IMG/VR virus record: IMGVR_UViG_3300047200_000331
Coordinates: 1 to 45,872 of that record
Source of the DNA: a virus
Strand: one strand, 5' to 3'
DNA: 45,872 nt
The notes under the pieces are model-generated. The model saw only the letters and a list, made by a program, of their open reading frames with translations. It did not search any database and was not told where the DNA came from. The position numbers and the translations under genes are program-made. Positions 3,317 to 22,707 of the stretch are shown here, one piece after another. The stretch's first letter is position 1. Every line of letters begins with the position of its first letter.

Positions 3317-3501
3317 GCCTGGGCCTCCATCGCCGAAATACGGGCAAGTAATTCTTGTTTTTCTGCCAACTCATGTTCCAATTTCTCAATCTCTGTTTCA
3401 AGTTGAGATTTACTGAACTTCCACACAATAGTCGGTTTCGTCAAAACAAAAGACCCATCAGTTGCAAGTTCAAGTACAAGATTTCCAAATGTAGTAGGCA
3501 T
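3313..3501 (-). CDS. Small coiled-coil protein
   Basis: 62 residues from ATG 3501, which has GGAG at a good distance and overlaps the upstream stop (TAATG). The N-terminal half is beta-like (TTFGNLVLEL). The C-terminal half, SQLETEIEKLEHELAEKQEL, is a clear heptad coiled coil, so the protein probably oligomerises. It sits among fibre-like genes; it may be a fibre trimerisation or attachment piece (inference). Confidence 0.7.
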   Translation of the reverse strand: MPTTFGNLVLELATDGSFVLTKPTIVWKFSKSQLETEIEKLEHELAEKQELLARISAMEAQA

Positions 3502-3698
3502 TATATATTCTCCAATACAGTTTGACAATTTATATCACATTTACCATCTATATATCGTTTCAGTCCAATACCTTTAAAAACAATTATATCTGGACTATTA
3601 TCATCTATAAACTTATCTTGTTCTTCGATTGGATAGACTTTAATATCGCAATCGTGTAAATCACAATGTATAGTCTGTATTCCAGAAAACGGCCACAT
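3501..3698 (-). CDS. Hypothetical protein
   Basis: 65 residues, with cysteine/histidine-containing segments HCDLHDC and CDINC that could bind metal. It overlaps the upstream lectin-like gene by one base and the downstream gene by one base. No family recognised. Confidence 0.6.
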   Translation of the reverse strand: MWPFSGIQTIHCDLHDCDIKVYPIEEQDKFIDDNSPDIIVFKGIGLKRYIDGKCDINCQTVLENI

Positions 3699-4225
3699 TA
3701 ACTTTTCTCCCGGACCTCGACATTATCATATACTACATAATATCCCGCAGTAGAATATCCCATCAAACCGACATATCCAGTAGTACATGCCTGAGAAGTA
3801 TCATCAATAGTTATTCTATTTACCCACGCCCCACTTTCCCATTCATCTACAGACAACTGGTATCCGTCTACTCTAAATCTGGTCTTACCATATATACTAT
3901 ATCCAATTGTCGATGTATAAGACCCAAGATTAGTTACAACACCCGCAACTACTTTTTGAATATAGTAAGTTCTTGTGGTTGCACCATATATTACAAGACG
4001 ATAACAATTATTTGCGGTTGCATCACTGCGTAAAACGACCGCACCACCTGCATTTGTATTTGATGTACTATATTTAGATTCACAAATAATTTCTACGTTT
4101 ATTAAATCTGACCGGCCATTCCACAACATCAACTTCGTTCCAGTCAATTGACATCTTTTAGACCCGGTCTCATCTATAATAGCAATTCCACCTGTACCCG
4201 TAATATTCCAATCGGTTCTTGCCAT
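3698..4225 (-). CDS. LamG/concanavalin-like beta-sandwich virion protein
   Basis: 175 residues starting MARTDWNITGTGGIAIID. The order of strands and motifs (VEIICESKYS, GGAVVLRSD, NCYRLVIYG, YYIQKVVAG, KTRFRVDGYQLSVDEWESG, GYVGLMGYS, YYVVYDNVEV) is that of laminin-G/concanavalin-like carbohydrate-binding sandwiches. Such domains occur on phage fibres and bind host glycans or cap the virion. It is packed end to end with the repeat-containing gene at 4226, whose stop abuts this start. Confidence 0.75.
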   Translation of the reverse strand: MARTDWNITGTGGIAIIDETGSKRCQLTGTKLMLWNGRSDLINVEIICESKYSTSNTNAGGAVVLRSDATANNCYRLVIYGATTRTYYIQKVVAGVVTNLGSYTSTIGYSIYGKTRFRVDGYQLSVDEWESGAWVNRITIDDTSQACTTGYVGLMGYSTAGYYVVYDNVEVREKS

Positions 4226-5885: not shown

Positions 5886-5966
5886 GTGTTGACCCCCTCT
5901 GGGGTGCAGGGGGGACCCAACTCGCGTCCGGCAATCGAAGGGTGATACCCGCCGGTAGGTGTTGCG

Positions 5967-5986
5967 TGTTAGTTATCTATCTAACA
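5967..5986. repeat. Diverged copy of the 20-bp palindrome
   Basis: TGTTAGTTATCTATCTAACA keeps the length and the TGTTAG start of the three identical copies downstream and has perfect TGTTAG/CTAACA arms, but a different centre. Confidence 0.6.
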
Positions 5987-6017
5987 AACTCACGCGGTCT
6001 GCCCTGTGCCCTTGCCT

Positions 6018-6503: not shown

Positions 6504-6532
6504 TTGACATTGTTTAGTCAATATGGTATAAT
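6504..6532 (+). promoter_or_regulatory. Main early rightward promoter
   Basis: TTGACA (6504-6509), 17-base spacer, TATAAT (6527-6532), with ATATGG before the -10 (TGn-extended). This is a perfect sigma70 consensus. The first gene starts at 6573, giving a leader of about 33 nt. It should be the strongest host-read early promoter. Confidence 0.92.
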
Positions 6533-6926: not shown

Positions 6927-7080
6927 ATGTTCTTATGCTGTCTGGCGACAGACTGTCGATAAACGAGGACACTATCACTTGCAGCGACAATGTGCAATCA
7001 GTCTACGGAAGTGTATTGACTATCGTAAGTCTGAATCCTGTCCCACAAAAAATTTGAAAATTTTGCCAGATTTTACTTGA
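6907..7080 (+). CDS. Small cysteine-containing basic protein
   Basis: 57 residues beginning MHRKYAKCSYAVWRQ, with four cysteines (C8, C29, C35, C45) and many basic residues. It overlaps the previous gene by 20 bases in another frame, and its TGA lies within the -35 of the next promoter (7077-7082). No strong ribosome binding site is visible, so it probably depends on coupled translation. The call rests on the open frame and protein-like composition. Confidence 0.5.
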   Translation: MHRKYAKCSYAVWRQTVDKRGHYHLQRQCAISLRKCIDYRKSESCPTKNLKILPDFT

Positions 7081-7105
7081 CATGTATTATAAAGTATGAT
7101 ACAAT
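7077..7105 (+). promoter_or_regulatory. Promoter giving an apparently leaderless transcript
   Basis: TTGACA (7077-7082), 17-base spacer, TACAAT (7100-7105), with TATGA before the -10. The ATG of the endonuclease VII-like gene is at 7112, just where transcription should begin, so the message may have no leader. Confidence 0.8.
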
Positions 7106-7471: not shown

Positions 7472-7496
7472 AAAATTACGTATATTATATATAGCA

Positions 7497-7581
7497 AGTG
7501 GTTAAGCTAACTCACCACTATAAAACGGAGAGCGGTTTGCCGGTTCGCCAAAAACCGGCTGCAATTATACTTTAGATAATT
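7497..7581 (+). promoter_or_regulatory. Leader hairpins upstream of the 7598 gene
   Basis: Three consecutive stems: AGTGGT/ACCACT (7497-7502 with 7514-7519), GCCGGTT/AACCGGC (7539-7545 with 7553-7559) and AATTAT/ATAATT (7563-7568 with 7576-7581). They end ten bases before the GAAAGG ribosome binding site. No T-run follows, so they are not terminators. Confidence 0.6.
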
Positions 7582-7597
7582 TTGAAAGGATAAGACA

Positions 7598-7771
7598 ATG
7601 ACGAAGAAAACTCCAAAACAATTCAAACGAGCATTGCTTAACCTAATAGAGCACGCTCCGACAATGGGGACGGTTGTTATTACTGATTTAGCTCAAGATG
7701 TCATTAGGCAAGGTCAATTTGTTTTAGCCCCATTGTTAAAACTTATTGCCAATTCGATTTATACTGATTAA
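7598..7771 (+). CDS. Small hypothetical early protein
   Basis: 57 residues (MTKKTPKQFKRALLNLIEHA...), basic at the N-terminus, then helical and hydrophobic (FVLAPLLKLIANSIYTD). It has a GAAAGG ribosome binding site ten bases upstream. No family recognised. Confidence 0.65.
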   Translation: MTKKTPKQFKRALLNLIEHAPTMGTVVITDLAQDVIRQGQFVLAPLLKLIANSIYTD

Positions 7772-7789
7772 CACGTTAATTATAAAATG

Positions 7790-7833
7790 ACAGTCTTTAC
7801 GCTCCTGCTCACGAGCCGGGGCGTATTAACTGT
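7790..7833 (+). promoter_or_regulatory. Three-tier leader hairpin
   Basis: Outer stem ACAGT/ACTGT (7790-7794, 7829-7833), symmetric 3x3 internal loop (ctt/tta), inner stem TACGCTCC/GGGGCGTA (7798-7805, 7818-7825, one G-U), and within the loop GCTC/GAGC. It ends directly before a GAGG ribosome binding site. The plan is shared with elements near 8427, 8941 and 10181. Confidence 0.7.
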
Positions 7834-7844
7834 TGAGGTGCGAT

Positions 7845-7901
7845 ATGTTTTGCAAAGAAATTTGGATTTTATTTGTGTTTATCACTGTTTCGTTGTGGTA
7901 A
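7845..7901 (+). CDS. Hydrophobic micropeptide
   Basis: 18 residues (MFCKEIWILFVFITVSLW), nearly all hydrophobic after Lys4-Glu5. It has a GAGG site six bases upstream and directly follows the leader hairpin. It could be a membrane micropeptide or a leader peptide for the large RNA that starts 50 bases later. Evidence is only the start site and composition. Confidence 0.4.
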   Translation: MFCKEIWILFVFITVSLW

Positions 7902-7953
7902 AATATTTTTACTTTTCGTTTGCAACGTACCGCAAAATAGTATATAGAGGGGT

Positions 7954-8138
7954 CTTTGACAAGTTAAGACATGCAATCAGCTAAGGGCGGACAAAGCAGA
8001 TACGTCTGGCCTTTGACCTGTACTAAATCCGCCGCTGTTATAATAATGTGAAAAAAGGCCAACAGAAATCGGGGACTAACTCGACAGCCACTATGCTGTA
8101 AAATTAAGATGTTGGTTGCATGTCTTAATCTGTCAAAG
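7954..8138 (+). ncRNA. Structured RNA closed by a 22-bp helix
   Basis: Arms 7954-7975 and 8117-8138 pair over 22 positions, with one A-C mismatch and one G-U pair: 8 bp CTTTGACA/TGTCAAAG, then TTAAGACATGCA with its complement. Inside are GGCGGA/TCCGCC (7986-7991, 8028-8033), GGCCTTT/AAAGGCC (8008-8014, 8054-8060), CTGTT/AACAG (8035-8039, 8061-8065) and ACAGC/GCTGT (8084-8088, 8095-8099). The first two cross, so they form a pseudoknot or alternate. ATTAAGA at 8103-8109 can also pair with TCTTAAT at 8122-8128, opening the long helix. No reading frame or tRNA fold explains it; a 5' regulatory RNA or RNase III substrate is likely. Confidence 0.7.
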
Positions 8139-8154
8139 TTTTTGGAGTTAGACT

Positions 8155-8280
8155 ATGTGTATGTTTGATGATAATGGTGTTATGCTGCCTGAGACCTACG
8201 ATGAGGAGGGTAACCGAACAGGACCGGATTGCCATGGTTGCGGTGAATGTGCAGATTTTGAAGAAGTTGAGGACAAATAA
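8155..8280 (+). CDS. Small acidic CxxC protein
   Basis: 41 residues (MCMFDDNGVMLPETYDEEGN, then CHGCGEC and an acidic tail). It has GGAG seven bases upstream and follows the 185-nt RNA, so that RNA is its leader. The CHGCGEC cluster suggests metal binding. Unknown function. Confidence 0.65.
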   Translation: MCMFDDNGVMLPETYDEEGNRTGPDCHGCGECADFEEVEDK

Positions 8281-8281
8281 T

Positions 8282-8428
8282 ATGTGCGACAAAAGACAAT
8301 TAGTTAAGTACATTTTTCACGACCAGAACGAAGCCTATACCTGTGCTAAGAAGGCTCTTGACGCCCACAGTCGCGTAAGTGTTGGCTACGACGGAGAAAC
8401 TGGTCTCTGGACAGTTTCAATAGGTTAA
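8282..8428 (+). CDS. Small hypothetical protein
   Basis: 48 residues (MCDKRQLVKYIFHDQNEAYT...VGYDGETGLWTVSIG) from ATG 8282, one base after the previous stop. A longer frame from 8165 would run through the upstream gene and is rejected. The fold looks like a small alpha-beta protein. No family recognised. Confidence 0.65.
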   Translation: MCDKRQLVKYIFHDQNEAYTCAKKALDAHSRVSVGYDGETGLWTVSIG

Positions 8429-8503
8429 ACTTTTCTTCGGTGTCCGGCATGGTCTGAGTTGCCATAATGTCAACTTCGCACGCCGGTATCCAAAGAAAAG
8501 TTT
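8427..8503 (+). promoter_or_regulatory. Long multi-tier leader hairpin
   Basis: Outer stem of 11 bp AAACTTTTCTT/AAGAAAAGTTT (8427-8437, 8493-8503), then GG/CC, a 3x3 internal loop (tgt/tat), then CCGGC/GCCGG. It begins at the stop codon of the previous gene and ends just before the AAAGG of the next. Confidence 0.75.
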
Positions 8504-8520
8504 AATAGAAAGGTTATGTA

Positions 8521-8655
8521 ATGAAAAAGACCATATTTACATTAGAAAAAGGCGAATTAGATTATGTAGTGAAATGGCATGGAGAGATTGAATTCAGTGG
8601 TAGTCTTGACTCTTGCTTAACATACATTAAGAATCAATTTGAAAATGGACGTTAA
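8521..8655 (+). CDS. Small hypothetical protein
   Basis: 44 residues (MKKTIFTLEKGELDYVVKWH...YIKNQFENGR), alpha-beta in character, with AAAGG nine bases upstream. It lies between two leader hairpins, so it is effectively its own cistron. No family recognised. Confidence 0.65.
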   Translation: MKKTIFTLEKGELDYVVKWHGEIEFSGSLDSCLTYIKNQFENGR

Positions 8656-8723
8656 ACGCGACTCCCCCTCGTGCCGTAGCGGCTTTCACCTCCGGCTCTA
8701 CGGCACATTAGGAATTTGCGTTT
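8654..8723 (+). promoter_or_regulatory. Leader hairpin of the GTGCCGT class, copy 1
   Basis: Outer stem AAACGC/GCGTTT (8654-8659, 8718-8723), symmetric 11x11 internal loop, inner stem GTGCCGTAG/CTACGGCAC (8671-8679, 8698-8706). It starts within the stop codon of the upstream gene and ends before GAAAGG. Confidence 0.75.
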
Positions 8724-8735
8724 GAAAGGTAAAAC

Positions 8736-8939
8736 ATGGCTGTTAAAGTAAAAAACTTAAAAGAGCAAATAGGTACGCTTGAACCCCGGCCGTTTTTGTA
8801 CTGTTCTATTTGTGGTGCGGAATATTCAGCGAATGCCGGAGATTATTGGACAGCAAACCCGGAGCATATTTTTATATGCTGCGACGAGCCGATATTGTTA
8901 ATGACAACACCTGTGGAATATAGAGAAGTAAAGAGCTAA
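8736..8939 (+). CDS. Zinc-ribbon-like small protein
   Basis: 67 residues. CSICG in the middle and CC near residue 51 could form a zinc site. Start at 8736 follows GAAAGG. Hairpins flank it on both sides. No specific family. Confidence 0.65.
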   Translation: MAVKVKNLKEQIGTLEPRPFLYCSICGAEYSANAGDYWTANPEHIFICCDEPILLMTTPVEYREVKS

Positions 8940-8940
8940 C

Positions 8941-9038
8941 ACTACCTGCGTGCCGTGTTAAGACGTTGCCTTAGAGCTGATGTGGCACGGCACAACGGTA
9001 GTTTTAGACAAAGTCCTATCTGTTACTTATGAATAGGA
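8941..9038 (+). promoter_or_regulatory. Leader hairpin of the GTGCCGT class, copy 2, plus RBS-masking stem
   Basis: Outer ACTACC/GGTAGT (8941-8946, 8997-9002), 3x3 internal loop (tgc/aac), inner GTGCCGTG/CACGGCAC (8950-8957, 8986-8993). A second stem TCCTAT/ATAGGA (9014-9019, 9033-9038) covers most of the AGGAG ribosome binding site of the 9046 gene, so it could control that gene's translation. Confidence 0.7.
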
Positions 9039-9045
9039 GAACAAA

Positions 9046-9489
9046 ATGGCCGGACTACTTTGCAGATATTGTCAAGAATGTGCACACGCCGACACGTGCG
9101 AAGACCCAAAAACCGAAGAAGACATGGGCACAAGTCAAAAAAGACCATGTAAGAATTATGAATTAGCAACAGATGATTTTGTTGAAGATGAAGACGAAGT
9201 GACAGACAAAGATAGTATTGATAATAATGATGTTGTTTTACATAGCCCACAACATGGTGCGTGCGACAATGCTGAACACGTTGATAGTGGAACTGGGACT
9301 GAATCACTTGCCGATAAATTTGTCCGTATATCCGGTAAGCGATTGACGCGAGCCTTGTACGAGTTAAAACTCATGGCACAGTTTGGCCGCCTGCGAAAAC
9401 AGTATGACTGGACGCAGGAACAAGCTGATGCTATTGTGTTAGCATTAAAACAGGCTGTGGATAAAGTAGAACAACAATTGAGGAGATAA
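9046..9489 (+). CDS. Hypothetical protein with cysteine head and helical tail
   Basis: 147 residues. CRYCQECAHADTC near the N-terminus is a likely zinc site; the middle (DDFVEDEDEVTDKDSIDNND) is acidic and probably disordered. The tail from about residue 88 (LADKFVRISGKRLTRALYEL...) is helical and basic. Two small domains joined by a linker are suggested. Unknown function. Confidence 0.7.
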   Translation: MAGLLCRYCQECAHADTCEDPKTEEDMGTSQKRPCKNYELATDDFVEDEDEVTDKDSIDNNDVVLHSPQHGACDNAEHVDSGTGTESLADKFVRISGKRLTRALYELKLMAQFGRLRKQYDWTQEQADAIVLALKQAVDKVEQQLRR

Positions 9490-9492
9490 AAT

Positions 9493-9681
9493 ATGGACGC
9501 ATATACTGCGACTGGATTAGCAGAAGGGTTTATCGAAACTGATAATGAAGAGCAAGTTGTTGAAGCGTGGCAGTATCTTGTTGATACTGGTTTGGCGTGG
9601 AGTTTACAGGGATATTTTGGTCGCACAGCCCGGCAGTTAATTGACGCCGGGATAATTAAGGGGAAAAATAATGCTTTATAG
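9493..9681 (+). CDS. Conserved small phage protein
   Basis: 62 residues. The segment AWQYLVDTGLAWSLQGYFGR followed by TARQLIDAG matches, from memory, a family of about 60 residues found in many unrelated phages, of unknown function. It starts three bases after the previous stop and overlaps the next gene by 11. Confidence 0.8.
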   Translation: MDAYTATGLAEGFIETDNEEQVVEAWQYLVDTGLAWSLQGYFGRTARQLIDAGIIKGKNNAL

Positions 9682-9937
9682 AATCTTTACCGAAAACAAA
9701 CAAAAAGACGGCGTAGCAAAGGTTGTAACCCGGTTTTTTGATGGGTTTACACTAATAGAGGGTGAAGGCTATTGGCAAGGCAAACCAGAAAAAACTTTGA
9801 TTATCGAAATTGATACAATCAATTCTACATGTCCGTCAAACCGTATTTCTGCCATTGTGGACGAAATTAAAGAGTTAAACAATCAACAATGTTGCTTGGT
9901 ACAAGAAACATCACTTGTTAGGAGTTATACACAATGA
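9671..9937 (+). CDS. Hypothetical protein
   Basis: 88 residues, mixed alpha-beta (DGFTLIEGEGYWQGKPEKT...VDEIKELNNQQ). The sequence GYWQG.PE.TLIIEI resembles small phage proteins with a beta-sheet core and a helical end, but no named family is assigned. It overlaps both neighbours (11 and 4 bases). Confidence 0.7.
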   Translation: MLYRIFTENKQKDGVAKVVTRFFDGFTLIEGEGYWQGKPEKTLIIEIDTINSTCPSNRISAIVDEIKELNNQQCCLVQETSLVRSYTQ

Positions 9938-10071
9938 ATGATATTGACTACAATCCGAAGTATGCAACGAAGGACGCTTATGGCAACGTTACTCTAAAAG
10001 CCAAAAAGCAACGGCCAGTCCGGCCCCGGCGTAAAATTCGTTTGAAATTCAAACACGGTTTAACCCCTTAA
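9934..10071 (+). CDS. Small very basic protein
   Basis: 45 residues with a lysine/arginine-rich second half (KAKKQRPVRPRRKIRLKFKH). The ATG overlaps the upstream stop (ATGA). Likely nucleic-acid binding; unknown otherwise. Confidence 0.6.
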   Translation: MNDIDYNPKYATKDAYGNVTLKAKKQRPVRPRRKIRLKFKHGLTP

Positions 10072-10089
10072 TTGAAAGAGAGATAAAGT

Positions 10090-10179
10090 ATGTATTATTG
10101 TATAAGTTTTGGTGTTGGAATAGTTGTAGGAGCCGCAGTATTGTTTATAGGTATATGGCTTGGAGCTAAGATAAGTTAA
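10090..10179 (+). CDS. Single-pass membrane micropeptide
   Basis: 29 residues (MYYCISFGVGIVVGAAVLFI, then GIWLGAKIS), one glycine-rich transmembrane helix with GxxxG-like spacing that would favour helix packing. It has a GAGAG-type site upstream. Unknown role at the host membrane. Confidence 0.5.
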   Translation: MYYCISFGVGIVVGAAVLFIGIWLGAKIS

Positions 10180-10180
10180 T

Positions 10181-10253
10181 TTTGCCCGCGTGCCGTGTAT
10201 ACAGAGATAAAACCGAAAACGGAGAATAAACTCTTCGCACGGCACAACGGCAA
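10181..10253 (+). promoter_or_regulatory. Leader hairpin of the GTGCCGT class, copy 3
   Basis: Outer TTGCC/GGCAA (10182-10186, 10249-10253), 3x3 internal loop (cgc/aac), inner GTGCCGTG/CACGGCAC (10190-10197, 10238-10245). Compared with copies 1 and 2, the outer stems differ in sequence but stay paired, which is covariation. Confidence 0.75.
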
Positions 10254-10277
10254 GATTAACTATTGAAGGGCTTTAAT

Positions 10278-10481
10278 ATGAAAAAAGAGCTAAAACTTTT
10301 TGTCTGGAATGATTTTTGCCCCGATTATACTTCAGGAATTGCCTTTGCGATTGCCAGTACTGAAGACGAAGCCAGACGGTTGATTGTGAAAGAATGTAAA
10401 TGCGAACCTTATACATGGGGTACGTTATCTAAACATCGGTTGGGTAGAAAGTTTGCGGATTGTGTGTTTGGTGGTGGTTAA
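10278..10481 (+). CDS. Hypothetical protein
   Basis: 67 residues from ATG 10278, with GAAGGG nine bases upstream (an earlier in-frame ATG at 10263 overlaps that site). The core FAIASTEDEARRLIVKECKC resembles small phage proteins carrying a helix that begins TEDEAR. A glycine tail ends FGGG. Unknown function. Confidence 0.65.
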   Translation: MKKELKLFVWNDFCPDYTSGIAFAIASTEDEARRLIVKECKCEPYTWGTLSKHRLGRKFADCVFGGG

Positions 10482-10496
10482 TTGAAGGGATAAACA

Positions 10497-11111
10497 ATGA
10501 ATAAACCAAAAAATTTATTAGTACAATATCAAGGCGGCGAGTATGATGGGTGTGTCTGGGAATGGAATTTCTTCTGTTTTGATAGTAAAGGTAAGTTTTA
10601 CAACATTTTTAGTAGTGGTTCTGCCGGGGTTGAAACCGAAGAACAGGCATTAAATCTATTAGATGAAAATAAACCTTATAGTGGAATAAAAAGTCCTATT
10701 GTAACACACCATTGCTATAAACTGAAAACAAAAAAAGCCCTCTTAGAACTTGCAAAAAAGACTAATGTTTATCTACTTAAAGGGCTGATAGAATGGTTCG
10801 GTAAACATTTGCAGGAATATAATGTTTATGCTCTTTGTTCAAAATGTGGGCATGAAATACAAAGCATCGAAGACCTTATTATTGAAGGCGAAGATGAGAT
10901 AATATGTGGAGAATGTTACTCTGCAAACTCTTGTGGTTATTGTGGAGATTATTGCAATAGTGAAAACTTAATTTGTTCTGAAAAAGATATTGTAAAAAAC
11001 GCTGATAGTCTAAAGAGTATATCCAGTAAAACACTATTAGACATACTTGATAATTATGCTCCACTTTGTGTCCATTGTTTTGAACGTTTGGTAGAGCGGG
11101 AATATGAATAG
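10497..11111 (+). CDS. Hypothetical protein with multi-cysteine zinc region
   Basis: 204 residues. The first 85 are alpha-beta (LLVQYQGGEYDGCVWEWNFF). From about residue 110 come CSKC, CGEC, CGYCGDYC, C and CVHC, enough ligands for two or three zinc ions in a RING- or LIM-like arrangement. Such domains act in protein or nucleic-acid binding. It is the largest protein of this small-gene cluster. Unknown function. Confidence 0.7.
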   Translation: MNKPKNLLVQYQGGEYDGCVWEWNFFCFDSKGKFYNIFSSGSAGVETEEQALNLLDENKPYSGIKSPIVTHHCYKLKTKKALLELAKKTNVYLLKGLIEWFGKHLQEYNVYALCSKCGHEIQSIEDLIIEGEDEIICGECYSANSCGYCGDYCNSENLICSEKDIVKNADSLKSISSKTLLDILDNYAPLCVHCFERLVEREYE

Positions 11112-11132
11112 TTAAAAATTGAGGATTGAATT

Positions 11133-11219
11133 ATGAAAGAAGAAAACATTATGTCTGTTGCTGCAATAGCTGTGATTTTGTGGATAGTAGGTTTGTGTAT
11201 TTATTTTGGTTGTAAATAA
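11133..11219 (+). CDS. Single-pass membrane micropeptide
   Basis: 28 residues (MKEENIMSVAAIAVILWIVG and a short tail) with one transmembrane helix after an acidic start. GAGGAT is ten bases upstream. It pairs with the next gene, also a membrane protein. Confidence 0.5.
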   Translation: MKEENIMSVAAIAVILWIVGLCIYFGCK

Positions 11220-11230
11220 GGAGTAAAATC

Positions 11231-11380
11231 ATGTTGTTGATAATTATAAAGATTCTATTAGTAAGTTTGTGGGTACATGCTTTTCTAAAAATCAGTGCAA
11301 ATTTTGTATCTCGTAGAAACATTCCACTTGTTTGGACCTATGGGTTCGGGATAATAACCGGTTTGTTGTGGGTATTGTAA
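11231..11380 (+). CDS. Small membrane protein
   Basis: 49 residues with two hydrophobic segments (LLIIIKILLVSLWVHAFL and YGFGIITGLLWVL) joined by a basic stretch (SRRN). AAGGAG is at a good distance. A holin-like size, but early in the genome and without other support. Confidence 0.55.
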   Translation: MLLIIIKILLVSLWVHAFLKISANFVSRRNIPLVWTYGFGIITGLLWVL

Positions 11381-11394
11381 TTGAGGATTAAACG

Positions 11395-11571
11395 ATGTTG
11401 ACCAGAAAACATTTTAAGGCAATAGCAGAGGTTATCAAAACGGCAGAAAACGTCCACCAAGAAACAATGGACGAAAAACGGCTTTATATTGCAAACCATT
11501 TAGCAGATTTTTGTGAAACACAAAATTCACGTTTTGACCGTGAGAAGTTTTTGACGGCGTGTAATGTTTAA
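11395..11571 (+). CDS. Conserved small phage protein
   Basis: 58 residues (MLTRKHFKAIAEVIKTAENV...FCETQNSRFDREKFLTACN). Proteins of this form, with an opening (T)xxxFKAIAEiIK and a closing F..eKFL.AC, occur in many phages infecting diverse bacteria (recognised from memory); function unknown. GAGGAT lies upstream. Confidence 0.75.
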   Translation: MLTRKHFKAIAEVIKTAENVHQETMDEKRLYIANHLADFCETQNSRFDREKFLTACNV

Positions 11572-11589
11572 TACTCGACCCCTTCTTTT

Positions 11590-11640
11590 CTACCCTTAGA
11601 GAACCGCATCACATCCCCGGTTCGGTTCTCAATAGGTTAG
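11590..11640 (+). promoter_or_regulatory. Two-tier leader hairpin
   Basis: Outer CTACCCT/AGGTTAG (11590-11596, 11634-11640, one mismatch), small internal loop, inner GAGAACCG/CGGTTCTC (11599-11606, 11623-11630). It ends five bases before AAAGG of the next gene. Confidence 0.7.
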
Positions 11641-11656
11641 AATGAAAGGCAATACA

Positions 11657-14470: not shown

Positions 14471-14725
14471 ATGAACACAGTTATATGTCCTGAAATTGAA
14501 AGTACAGTTTGTCCTACTTTTAGTGAAGTTCTGACATCGGGAGAAACGGCGTTTATAGGTGAATGTGGAACGGGACCGGAACATTCACTTTATTTTATTT
14601 GCTATGAACTAATAGTTTTAGCAAGTAATCCTCAAAAAACATGGCGACCGACTTGGCGGACTGAGCGGGGTTCAATTACAATCGACCGCTATGTAGATGT
14701 GATAATAACTGTTAAGGAAAAATAA
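14471..14725 (+). CDS. Hypothetical protein
   Basis: 84 residues from ATG 14471, with GGAG six bases upstream. Beta-rich; VCPTFSEVLTSGETAFIGEC and a C-terminal VDVIITVKEK. No family recognised. Its stop overlaps the next start by one base (TAATG). Confidence 0.65.
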   Translation: MNTVICPEIESTVCPTFSEVLTSGETAFIGECGTGPEHSLYFICYELIVLASNPQKTWRPTWRTERGSITIDRYVDVIITVKEK

Positions 14726-15414
14726 TGAGTAGAATATTAGTAATTCCTGATACACATATTCCTTTTGTACGACCAAAGTTTCTTCAATTCTGCCGTGATT
14801 TATATAAGGAATATCATTGTAATGCAGTCCTTCATATTGGGGACGTAGTAGATAGTCATTCAATCAGTTTCCACGAGCACCACCCGGAACTTCCAAATTC
14901 TCTTGACGAGTATAAACAGGCATTTGAAATGATTAAAGAATGGAAATCTGCTTTTCCAAAAATGAAGGTCTGTTGTGGGAACCATGATTCAAGAATAATT
15001 CGACTTGCTAACTCAGTTAATATTCCAAGTCAAATGTTAAAAACTTATCAAGAAATTTGGAATACTCCAAAATGGGATTGGCAATGGTCGTTTGATATAG
15101 ATAATATTCACTTTGTTCATGGTCATAATAGCGGTGGCGGACTCTGGCCTGCTTACAATATGATGCGTAAGACCGCTCAGTCATGTGTTTGCGGACATTA
15201 TCATAGTGCCGCAGGTTTGAAATACCTCGTAAACCATAACGCCAGATTGTTTGGCCTTGATGTAGGTGCGGGTTGTGATGATACCAAATTAGCATTTGCT
15301 TACAATCAATTCAACACCATTCGGTCGGTTATAAGTGCTGCTGTTATCTTAAACGGTATACCATACTTAGAGGTTATGCCGATAGGAAAAAACGAGAAAT
15401 ACTATAATGGTTAA
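14725..15414 (+). CDS. Calcineurin-like metallophosphoesterase
   Basis: 229 residues with all family motifs: D9/H11 in PDTHIP, D40/D43 in GDVVDSH, N87/H88/D89 in GNHD, H133/H135 in FVHGH and H159/H161 in CGHYH. These ligate two metals. Phage relatives are phosphodiesterases or phosphatases, often next to replication genes; the substrate may be nucleic-acid ends or nucleotides. Length is normal and the site complete, so activity is likely. The substrate is not deducible. Confidence 0.9.
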   Translation: MSRILVIPDTHIPFVRPKFLQFCRDLYKEYHCNAVLHIGDVVDSHSISFHEHHPELPNSLDEYKQAFEMIKEWKSAFPKMKVCCGNHDSRIIRLANSVNIPSQMLKTYQEIWNTPKWDWQWSFDIDNIHFVHGHNSGGGLWPAYNMMRKTAQSCVCGHYHSAAGLKYLVNHNARLFGLDVGAGCDDTKLAFAYNQFNTIRSVISAAVILNGIPYLEVMPIGKNEKYYNG

Positions 15415-16399: not shown

Positions 16400-16550
16400 A
16401 ATTTCTCTTTTTTTAGGATTGTTAAATTGTTTTATTTGTGTGCCATGTTTTGTTATTTCAGCAATAAAAAAGGATACTGTTTTTTTTATACTTGGTTTGT
16501 TTAGTCTTATTATTGGAATAGTAAACATTTGTAATGCTATTGAAGAATGA
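16386..16550 (+). CDS. Small two-helix membrane protein
   Basis: 54 residues with two transmembrane segments (LFLGLLNCFICVPCFVI and FFILGLFSLIIGIVNIC) separated by KKD, ending acidic. Its stop overlaps the polymerase start (ATGA). Unknown function. Confidence 0.6.
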   Translation: MKIDKISLFLGLLNCFICVPCFVISAIKKDTVFFILGLFSLIIGIVNICNAIEE

Positions 16551-17689
16551 ACTGGCAAGAAATTCTCCAATCTGTTAATTTTCCAACGACCGTAGTAGTC
16601 CTTGATTTTGAAACATACTGGACCGATAGTTACAGTTTGAAAAAAATGTCTACAATTGAATATGTTACTGATTCAAGATTTGAAATTATAGGTCTGGGAC
16701 TTGGTAATATTCCAGATGGCTGTTCAGATACTACTAATTATAAATGTGATTTTATATTGCCCGACAAAATAATCAATTTTATAAAGTTTCTTAAAAATGA
16801 GTTTGGACAAAACCTTGAGCGTTGTACAGTGGTGGGACAGAATATTTCATTTTTTGATAATTTGGTACTGTCTCATCACTTTGGCATTATTCCTAAATAT
16901 ACGATAGACATTTTAAATCTCGCTCGGCATGAAGATAGTCAAAGACATAATGATTTGGAGCATTTGTGTAAATATTATAATATATCAGTTGAAAAAGGTG
17001 ATATTAAACAGTTTAAAGGTCTGACTTATAAACAAATGTCGCCGACATTACAAAAACGATTAGCTGAATATTGCAAAATAGATGTTATTGCAGAAACAGA
17101 ATTGTTTAAATTATTACTGCCTAAATTATCTAATCCAGACACAGAATTACGACTTGCTGACCATACATCAAAGATGTATTTACAACCGAGATTGAATTTT
17201 GATTTTGAACTTGCTGATAAACTTATTATAGAAATGAAACAGGAATTAGATAAAATACTCAGTAAAGTTAATCTGGATATTAAAACAATTCGTTCTAATA
17301 AATTTGTAGAAATACTTCAACAGTATCTACCTGAAAATGAACGGGCACCAATGAAATATGGTAAAAGGGGTTCTATTCCTGCATTAGCAAAAACAGACGA
17401 GGCGTTTCAGGTGTTGTTAAATCATCCCAAAGATGAAGTGCGGAATCTTGCACAGGCCCGACTTGCAGCAAAGTCTTGGCCCACACATATAAAAAGAGTA
17501 CAAGGTATGATTGCTCAGGCGAAGGCCTGGAATGGTAAAATCGCTGTACCACTTCGATATTATGCTGCCCACACTGGACGTTTTGGTGGAACAGAGGGAA
17601 TTAACTTACAGAATTTACCCGGCGTTGGCCGAGCGGGTTCGGGTACACATCCATTGCTATCTAAAATACGAGGTTTGCTTGTAGCATGA
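16547..17689 (+). CDS. polA: Family A DNA polymerase, exonuclease and N-terminal palm part
   Basis: 380 residues. Proofreading 3'-5' exonuclease motifs: VVVLDFETY (Asp/Glu), VVGQNISFFDN and EYCKIDVIAE. Polymerase sequence follows from about residue 205, ending YYAAHTGRFGGTEGINLQNL...LLSKIRGLLVA, which in intact enzymes lies directly before motif A. The frame stops at TGA 17687, and the remainder is encoded from ATG 17686 in the -1 frame. The two halves must associate, or a ribosomal slip or sequence error is involved. It replicates the phage DNA with the primase-helicase at 22854. Confidence 0.92.
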   Translation: MNWQEILQSVNFPTTVVVLDFETYWTDSYSLKKMSTIEYVTDSRFEIIGLGLGNIPDGCSDTTNYKCDFILPDKIINFIKFLKNEFGQNLERCTVVGQNISFFDNLVLSHHFGIIPKYTIDILNLARHEDSQRHNDLEHLCKYYNISVEKGDIKQFKGLTYKQMSPTLQKRLAEYCKIDVIAETELFKLLLPKLSNPDTELRLADHTSKMYLQPRLNFDFELADKLIIEMKQELDKILSKVNLDIKTIRSNKFVEILQQYLPENERAPMKYGKRGSIPALAKTDEAFQVLLNHPKDEVRNLAQARLAAKSWPTHIKRVQGMIAQAKAWNGKIAVPLRYYAAHTGRFGGTEGINLQNLPGVGRAGSGTHPLLSKIRGLLVA

Positions 17690-18525
17690 GTAATGTCCTT
17701 GTAATAGTTGATTTAGCTCAAATAGAAGCCCGTATTTTGGCCTGGTTTGCTGGACAGGAAGACTTACTAAAAGGTTTTGCAAATGGTAAAGACATTTATA
17801 GTGAGTTTGCTACTACTTTGTTCGGCCATATTGTGCGTAAGAAGTGTGAAAGTGATTCGCCTGATGCTGCAAAGATATTTACAATACAAAGAAGTTTTGG
17901 TAAAGATACGATACTTGGCTGCGGATATGGAATGGGAACAACCAAATTCTATAGCCGGTGCTTGGCTAACTCAGACCTTAAACCAGCTTTTGATAACGGC
18001 ACTTATGATTTTGCTTTTATTGAAAAACTAATTAAAACATACCGTACAAAATATCCTTTGATTCCAAAATTTTGGACTAATATAGAAAAAGCGTTCAGAT
18101 GGGTAGTAAAATATCCGCAAGAAATTATAAAATTTGAAAGATTTCTCTTTACTTTCTGGAATGAATGTGGTATAGTAAATGTACAATTACCGTCTGGTCG
18201 AGTATTAAAATATCCTCATGCAAGAATTAGAAAAGGTGATAACAGTTTAATATGGGAACATGGTCATCTCTGGGGCGGTTCTATTACAGAGAACCTGGAC
18301 CAGGCAGTTGCCCGTGATATTCTGGCAGAGGCAATACTACGAATGGAAGATGCTGGAATACCTATAGTTTTACACGCTCACGATGAAATTGTTGGGTTAA
18401 TTCCAAAATGGGGGTCTGAAGATGTACTTGCGGCAATGATAGAAAATATGTGTACCCCGCCGTCTTGGGCAATTGGTTTGCCTATCGCGGCAGAGGGGAA
18501 AATTGTAAAGAAATATGAAAAGTAA
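17686..18525 (+). CDS. polA: Family A DNA polymerase, catalytic C-terminal part
   Basis: 279 residues. Motif A, VIVDLAQIEARILAW, appears within the first 20 residues. Motif B is RSFGKDTILGCGYGMG, whose Arg, Lys and Tyr align with E. coli Arg754, Lys758 and Tyr766; the position of Phe762 is Leu. Motif C is HAHDEIVG with the catalytic HDE. All catalytic residues are present, but this half lacks the exonuclease and the HTGRF primer-grip region, which are on the preceding gene. It overlaps that gene by ATGA and the next by 11 bases. Confidence 0.92.
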   Translation: MSNVLVIVDLAQIEARILAWFAGQEDLLKGFANGKDIYSEFATTLFGHIVRKKCESDSPDAAKIFTIQRSFGKDTILGCGYGMGTTKFYSRCLANSDLKPAFDNGTYDFAFIEKLIKTYRTKYPLIPKFWTNIEKAFRWVVKYPQEIIKFERFLFTFWNECGIVNVQLPSGRVLKYPHARIRKGDNSLIWEHGHLWGGSITENLDQAVARDILAEAILRMEDAGIPIVLHAHDEIVGLIPKWGSEDVLAAMIENMCTPPSWAIGLPIAAEGKIVKKYEK

Positions 18526-22601: not shown

Positions 22602-22608
22602 ATTTTTG

Positions 22609-22690
22609 TCGCCGATGTTCTAACCAGTGAGTTAGTGGTAGATTGGCCACAGGGCAACATACAAAGGCCGGTTCGACTCCGGCCCGGCGA
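22609..22690 (+). ncRNA. tRNA-like element
   Basis: 82 nt between two genes. It has a T-arm exactly like a tRNA (GCCGG, loop TTCGACT, CCGGC at 22667-22683) and an acceptor-like stem TCGCCG/CGGCGA (22609-22614, 22685-22690), plus AGTTAGTGGTAGA resembling a tRNA D-loop. A canonical 5-bp anticodon stem with 7-base loop is not found: the best is TTG/CAA around nine bases. It may be a degenerate or unusual tRNA, or a tRNA mimic. Confidence 0.4.
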
Positions 22691-22707
22691 TTTTGGAATT
22701 ATAAAAT

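Follow-up and report, generated by a model that had tools for sequence, protein, structure and literature searches.

Hairpins at early gene junctions

Two sequence-unrelated hairpin families of similar plan are present at early gene junctions of related uncultivated phages. One consists of three hairpins (el4, el5 and el6) in the 45,872-base virus record IMGVR_UViG_3300047200_000331, the whole of which was analysed and is called the window here. The other, which is previously undescribed, is found in relatives of this phage and is recognized by an AAGC-GA / GA-GCTT core. A preliminary description of the window had listed seven multi-tier RNA hairpins (el1 to el7), each before a small early gene, and had treated them as one family, with covariation of the outer stems in three of them.

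The folding energy of each element was compared with that of 200 dinucleotide shuffles and expressed as z, using our own boundaries unless stated otherwise. For each of el2-el7, 0/200 shuffles were as stable as the element. Within the boundaries first proposed, el2-el7 also folded strongly (z of -5.2, -5.8, -4.2, -2.9, -4.8 and -5.1, respectively). The preliminary description took shuffled energies as low as the real ones to speak against its proposal. Six of the seven elements escape this, and el1 does not. The latter, first outlined at 7497-7581, is not multi-tier and reached z of -0.9 and -1.1. The whole gap before the 7598 gene (7472-7597, + strand) contains two ordinary small hairpins, with z -1.1 and 24/200 shuffles equally stable. 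Therefore, el1 is best regarded as outside the hairpin set.

The remaining six have a common anatomy. The inner stem is at least 8 bp in all of el2-el7, and the internal loop, which had been called often exactly 3x3, is so in el2, el3, el5 and el6 but not in el4 (4x4 or 5x4) or el7 (2x3). el2 (7788-7835, +; -23.2 kcal/mol, z -5.2) precedes an 18-aa open reading frame (ORF) at 7845 and is built from an outer stem of 6-7 bp, the 3x3 loop, an 8-bp inner stem and a short additional stem. el3 (8425-8505, +; z -6.6) has an outer stem of at least 12 bp including the upstream stop codon, a 3x3 loop TGT/TAT and an 8-bp inner stem with one A.C mismatch. el7 (11577-11650, +; z -4.7) is a three-tier hairpin with an 8-bp inner stem GAGAACCG/CGGTTCTC and the 2x3 loop, and its base pairs with AAGG in the Shine-Dalgarno region of the following gene.

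The position of the hairpins is also regular. Most of them fill the space between the stop codon of one gene and the Shine-Dalgarno sequence of the next. el3-el6 start with this stop codon, which is held in the outer stem. The hairpin end lies 6-15 nt before the next start codon in el2, el3, el4, el6 and el7, so that the proposed placement just upstream of a ribosome binding site is right for most elements; in el5 the distance is 38 nt. What had been taken as the rest of el5 is a separate weak hairpin (9014-9037, +; -2.3 kcal/mol, z -0.8) over the Shine-Dalgarno sequence of the 9046 gene, joined in the preliminary description to the strong hairpin at 8936-9007.

This arrangement raises the possibility that the hairpins act on translation, either by folding away a spacer of 80-100 nt and so bringing the stop codon next to the Shine-Dalgarno sequence for coupling, or by keeping neighbouring cistrons apart. 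In agreement with this, el3-el6 and most copies in the relatives have the stop codon at the foot of the outer stem, and most window elements are followed within a few nt by the Shine-Dalgarno sequence. However, overlapping genes, which also occur in this phage, give coupling more simply, and an effect on translation leaves the conserved inner stems and the tandem G.A core of the relatives unexplained. We consider it improbable.

As had been claimed, el2-el7 have no T-run, and none of the six is among the terminators listed for the window. Thus, they are not intrinsic terminators. They could still be transcription signals of another kind, namely Rho-assisted or pausing hairpins, or antitermination RNAs like the HK022 put sites, for which their location in an early operon and their multi-tier structure would be suitable. 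Antitermination elements are known mainly near the transcript start, whereas these hairpins recur at nearly every junction with a gap. This and the missing T-run make such a role very unlikely.

Strong folding is found in nearly all of the early gaps. In 7472-11656, seven of eight whole gaps of at least 45 nt had z below -2.5, compared with 28/226 (12%) of control gaps from 48 contigs found via the polymerase (binomial tail 3e-6 for 7/8), and many of the strongest control gaps have terminator-like T-runs. Genes of the relatives and controls came from a simple in-house caller, so that single boundaries may be off, and the window gaps were set by hand. A descriptor scan (outer stem at least 5 bp, 3x3 loop, inner stem at least 7 bp) gave 6 matches in the window, where shuffles gave 1.5 (at most 5), and only el5 and el6 stood out. 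Thus, this geometry alone is weak evidence.

The early gaps contain a further large structured element that was absent from the earlier list. It occupies 205 nt (7946-8150, +) of a 253-nt gap before the 8155 gene (-67.5 kcal/mol, z -5.1) and is closed by a 26-bp inverted repeat with 88% complementarity (7954-7979 with 8113-8138). No Rfam match was found for it. Its closing-stem arms, each read inward on its own strand, have the form TTGACA-NN-TTAAGACATGCAA, and inspection by eye indicated a possible pseudoknot of GGCGGA/TCCGCC with GGCCTTT/AAAGGCC.

Three paralogous hairpins in the window

Base-pair conservation in the window was observed in el4, el5 and el6, which are paralogs. The arm sequences quoted in the preliminary description are all present in the window. 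el4 (8652-8726, +; z -5.3) has the inner stem GTGCCGTA/TACGGCAC and the outer stem AAACGC/GCGTTT, and its internal loop is 4x4 in the family register and 5x4 in the minimum-energy fold. In el5 (8936-9007, +; z -5.0) the inner stem GTGCCGTG/CACGGCAC and the outer stem ACTACC/GGTAGT are separated by a 3x3 loop TGC/AAC. The same inner stem recurs in el6 (10174-10262, +; -37.6 kcal/mol, z -8.3), together with a 13-bp outer stem, a 3x3 loop CGC/AAC and an apical part of 40 nt. In all three, the upstream stop codon lies within the outer stem, and all three are covered by models R1 and R2.

Among el4-el6 the inner stem hardly varies, and the outer stems are divergent. Nine of 21 pairs are changed on both sides (8 outer, 1 inner), against 3.4 in shuffles, and 0/500 shuffles reach this number. 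When the 3' partners were slid by 1-3 columns, pairing fell from 90% to 29-40%. The covariation inside one genome that had been reported is therefore real for these three, and selected RNA structure is well supported, much more securely than any function of the hairpins.

It is very improbable that the signal instead comes from DNA-level inverted repeats, such as a palindrome of a small mobile or REP-like kind, or DNA sites bound by a protein. The inner inverted repeat is common to three copies and both strands fold similarly, which would fit such repeats; however, the outer arms diverge yet still pair, spacers of 18-40 nt are unlike an operator, the copies fit between a stop codon and a Shine-Dalgarno sequence, and relatives carry a different sequence family on the same plan.

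The view that all seven form one family was too strong. Searched with the covariance model of el4-el6, the window yielded none of el2, el3 and el7, even with filters off in the early region. These three have only geometry in common with el4-el6 and are unrelated in sequence. Thus, the seven resolve into three paralogs, three geometric look-alikes and one failing element. el3 was considered as a further paralog and rejected, because the double changes seen with it in alignment A5 presuppose a homology that model R2 does not support. Alignments A5 and A6 (four-letter apical filler) and A10 (trimmed loops) were edited by hand to keep the arms in register, and therefore the E-values of training copies are not evidence. 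A pattern search of IMG/VR with the inner stem of el4-el6 returned 32 stretches, apparently chance or coding matches. Just one of them (L091) had a paired outer stem, and it was rejected since it sits in a coding frame.

A second hairpin family in related phages

The window has no near match among the approximately 50,700 phage records with which it was compared, and el4-el6 were without homologs in all relatives that were searched. Queries with tail fibres and with single proteins yielded few relatives of use. Of the relatives with a comparable gene set, G002, a contig of 46 kb, is the closest. Its structural proteins are up to ~80% identical and its primase ~37%, and the hairpin family of the window is absent from it. 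A polymerase alignment yielded nine loci at 42-53% identity, including L102, whose early gaps are strongly folded and unrelated in sequence. Two early-gene alignments common to the window and L102 then led to the related early regions L180-L199, in which hairpins with the AAGC-GA / GA-GCTT core were first spotted and eight were collected.

Base-pair conservation was also observed in this family. With the eight members in continuous register, only 8 of 40,320 reassignments of partners pair at least as well as the true outer arms, and only 72 of 40,320 at least as well as the true inner arms. Changes on both sides occur in 31 cells, compared with 13.1 for shuffles (0/500), although the number of pairs changed on both sides (12 vs 9.2 in shuffles) is not exceptional. 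The tandem G.A core is kept while the stems on either side covary. Model R3 found three members outside its training set at 39-53 bits (L181 12392, L183 9482 and L183 6790), and its best score on 0.73 Mb of control loci was 14.5 bits. In total, the family occupies 11 places in six phages, with up to three places per phage, leaving out overlapping contig copies and the near-identical loci L185/L186, L194/L180 and L195/L181.

These hairpins are at orthologous junctions. They follow homologous genes in L102, L181 and L187, and in L185 and L183 the genes both before and after them are homologous. In L180, L181, L183 and L185 they lie upstream of a gene with two helix-turn-helix-like stretches, as judged by eye. 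The outer stem includes the upstream stop codon in most copies. The proposed test of covariation in homologous intergenic regions thus has a mixed outcome: the window family is without homologs in the relatives searched, but a parallel covarying family was found at orthologous junctions. The hairpin core is not shared between the window and the relatives: the best R3 score in the window, with filters off, was 12.5 bits against 39-62 for members, and the AAGC-GA family is absent there. A pattern search of bacterial and archaeal genomes found none of this family, and no family of Rfam release 15, where families are likewise defined by conserved base pairing, reached its gathering score, be it in the window or in those relatives that carry the AAGC-GA hairpins.

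Two observations were made nearby. L102 has a strong hairpin at 3610-3710 (-38.6 kcal/mol). The 5' arm falls within the gene 3498-3701 and the 3' arm extends into the first part of the AAGC-GA element, so that this hairpin and the element could be alternative folds. L215, a contig binned to Planctomycetota (binning is not proof of host) with a polymerase 50% identical, has one strong hairpin from stop codon to Shine-Dalgarno sequence (z -5.0) and no R3 match.

A conserved tandem G.A core flanked by covarying stems is what would be expected of an internal loop recognized by a protein, and the nearly constant inner stem of el4-el6 fits with this. The hairpins might thus be binding sites of a phage or host regulatory protein that controls the stability or translation of early genes, through the AAGC-GA/GA-GCTT core in the relatives and the GTGCCGTG inner stems in the window. 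There is a precedent in T4 gp43, which binds an RNA hairpin upstream of its own start codon (PMC3014915). However, el2, el3 and el7 have no detectable sequence in common with el4-el6, the window and the relatives have no common core, and no candidate protein was identified in this analysis. We regard protein binding as a possible but less likely alternative. A further idea, which we hold with slightly more reserve, is that in a group of uncultivated phages lineage-specific multi-copy RNA families organize early operons and are replaced between lineages while junction position and geometry persist, being read by a dedicated regulator or processing enzyme and not by general RNase III.

Possible processing of early RNA

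Beyond the folds and positions described above, we favour, with about as much doubt as confidence, the explanation that the hairpins are RNA processing or end-defining sites working like the RNase III hairpins of T7. The likeness to the geometry of T7 early sites makes host RNase III, or an enzyme similar to it, the favoured agent. Their intergenic location, the strand shared with the genes by position and the lack of a T-run also support processing, as do the strength of the folds, the pairing kept in el4-el6 despite divergent outer stems, and the different family that relatives maintain at orthologous junctions.

Rightward genes occupy ~6.5 to 26.8 kb of the window. Many tiny genes come first, and further on are those for a split DNA polymerase of family A, an exonuclease and a primase-helicase. 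A promoter-like site TTGACA-17-TATAAT (6504-6532, +), matching at 12/12 positions with an extended -10, is at the head of the early region, and a second, TTGACA-17-TACAAT (7077-7105, +; 11/12), lies upstream of all hairpins. The tiny-gene cluster with hairpins is downstream of both of these sigma-70-type matches. A polycistronic early RNA would be transcribed rightward from ~6504 and ~7077, carrying a hairpin at most of the gapped junctions between tiny genes; each would reach from the upstream stop codon almost to the following Shine-Dalgarno sequence. Host RNase III, or an enzyme of like habit, would cut the helix near the internal loop as in T7. The products would be short messages, the upstream piece with a hairpin-protected 3' end and the downstream piece with a clean ribosome-binding site. 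Even if not cut, the same hairpins may be barriers that protect or insulate each cistron.

Several points speak against processing by RNase III. Folding energy is alike on both strands, and el3, el4 and el7 fold better in antisense; folding therefore does not show the strand, which was inferred from gene direction. At several further early junctions of the window the genes abut or overlap, which accounts for the lack of a hairpin there. A search of seven of the phages turned up no RNase III gene, so that a host enzyme must be assumed. Furthermore, the apical parts of el4-el6 are 18-40 nt with extra stems, larger than those of T7.

Other features of the window and its relatives

The DNA polymerase of the window is encoded by two ORFs (16547-17689 and 17686-18525); in G002 (L096), an endonuclease VII-like gene lies between two polymerase pieces. 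A calcineurin-like phosphoesterase (14725-15414) is 84% identical to its G002 homolog, whereas identity is mostly 30-55% for the replication proteins. The stretch 5902-6012, which precedes the early promoter, has a very stable fold (-52 kcal/mol, z -4.0). A tRNA-like fold is located between the homolog of the 21356-22234 gene and the primase, in the window (22608-22691), in L102 (17170-17244) and in L107 (7264-7337). The window copy has a 7-bp acceptor-like stem and a T-arm with a TTCGACT loop; it received no ARAGORN call and scored 15 bits with Rfam tRNA-Sec, under the cut-off. ARAGORN called the L107 copy a full tRNA with anticodon CTA.

Comparison with known systems

Judged from sequence and folding, the nearest known kinds are the T7 RNase III sites and the extended start-associated sequences (ESAS) of cluster K mycobacteriophages, although the sequence features that define each of them are not found here. 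ESAS are multi-copy imperfect inverted repeats with a variable spacer, located upstream of the starts of a subset of genes, with unknown function (PMC3203893). The window hairpins resemble them in their multi-copy occurrence, imperfect repeats, variable spacer and location directly upstream of gene starts. The arms of ESAS are sequence-conserved 17-bp repeats, whereas only the 8-bp inner stem of el4-el6 is conserved in the window, and the 13-bp SAS GGGATAGGAGCCC had 0 matches in the window with up to 2 mismatches allowed.

PeSL cassettes of T4-type phages are also repeated intergenic stem-loops in early regions, and they are paired with an early promoter. The window hairpins end 6-15 nt from the start codon (38 nt in el5), which leaves no room for a promoter of this type.

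The early sites of T7 are closer in architecture. The gaps that we take to hold R0.3, R0.5, R1, R1.1 and R1.3 were folded in the same manner as a positive control and gave z of -1.3 to -3.6, weaker than el2-el7. R1.1, located between genes 1 and 1.1, forms a hairpin of 60 nt with an asymmetric 4/5 internal loop (PMC6121014), whereas loops in the window are mostly symmetric 3x3. The apical part is ~4-5 nt in T7 against 18-40 nt in el4-el6, and the T7 inner-arm sequence (AAGGTC.. / ..GGCCTT) is not shared, as no AAGGTC occurs inside el2-el7. On the other hand, both are multi-copy intergenic hairpins in an early polycistronic region (the transcript being predicted here), just upstream of the next gene and without a T-run. 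In both, the inner stem is largely shared (~9 bp or longer in T7), the internal loop is small, and the outer stems vary in sequence yet remain paired. The comparison with T7 made in the preliminary description was therefore apt in geometry. A T7-type helix of about two turns with an internal loop is found in el2-el7 (outer stem 6-13 bp, inner stem 8-9 bp; el2 shortest). Compared with the 22-nt minimum applied to helices of E. coli RNase III targets (PMC5371410), el3-el7 have a total helix of about this length or more, and el2 falls short of it.

The conserved tandem G.A core of the relatives provides a testable recognition motif, and the covariance models offer a first means of searching other viral contigs for such elements. 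Processing and protection sites of early phage RNA have been well studied in few phages, T7 above all. If the hairpins described here are processing sites, junction hairpins would be a recurrent design of early operons, in which the sequence is replaceable and the geometry is kept.

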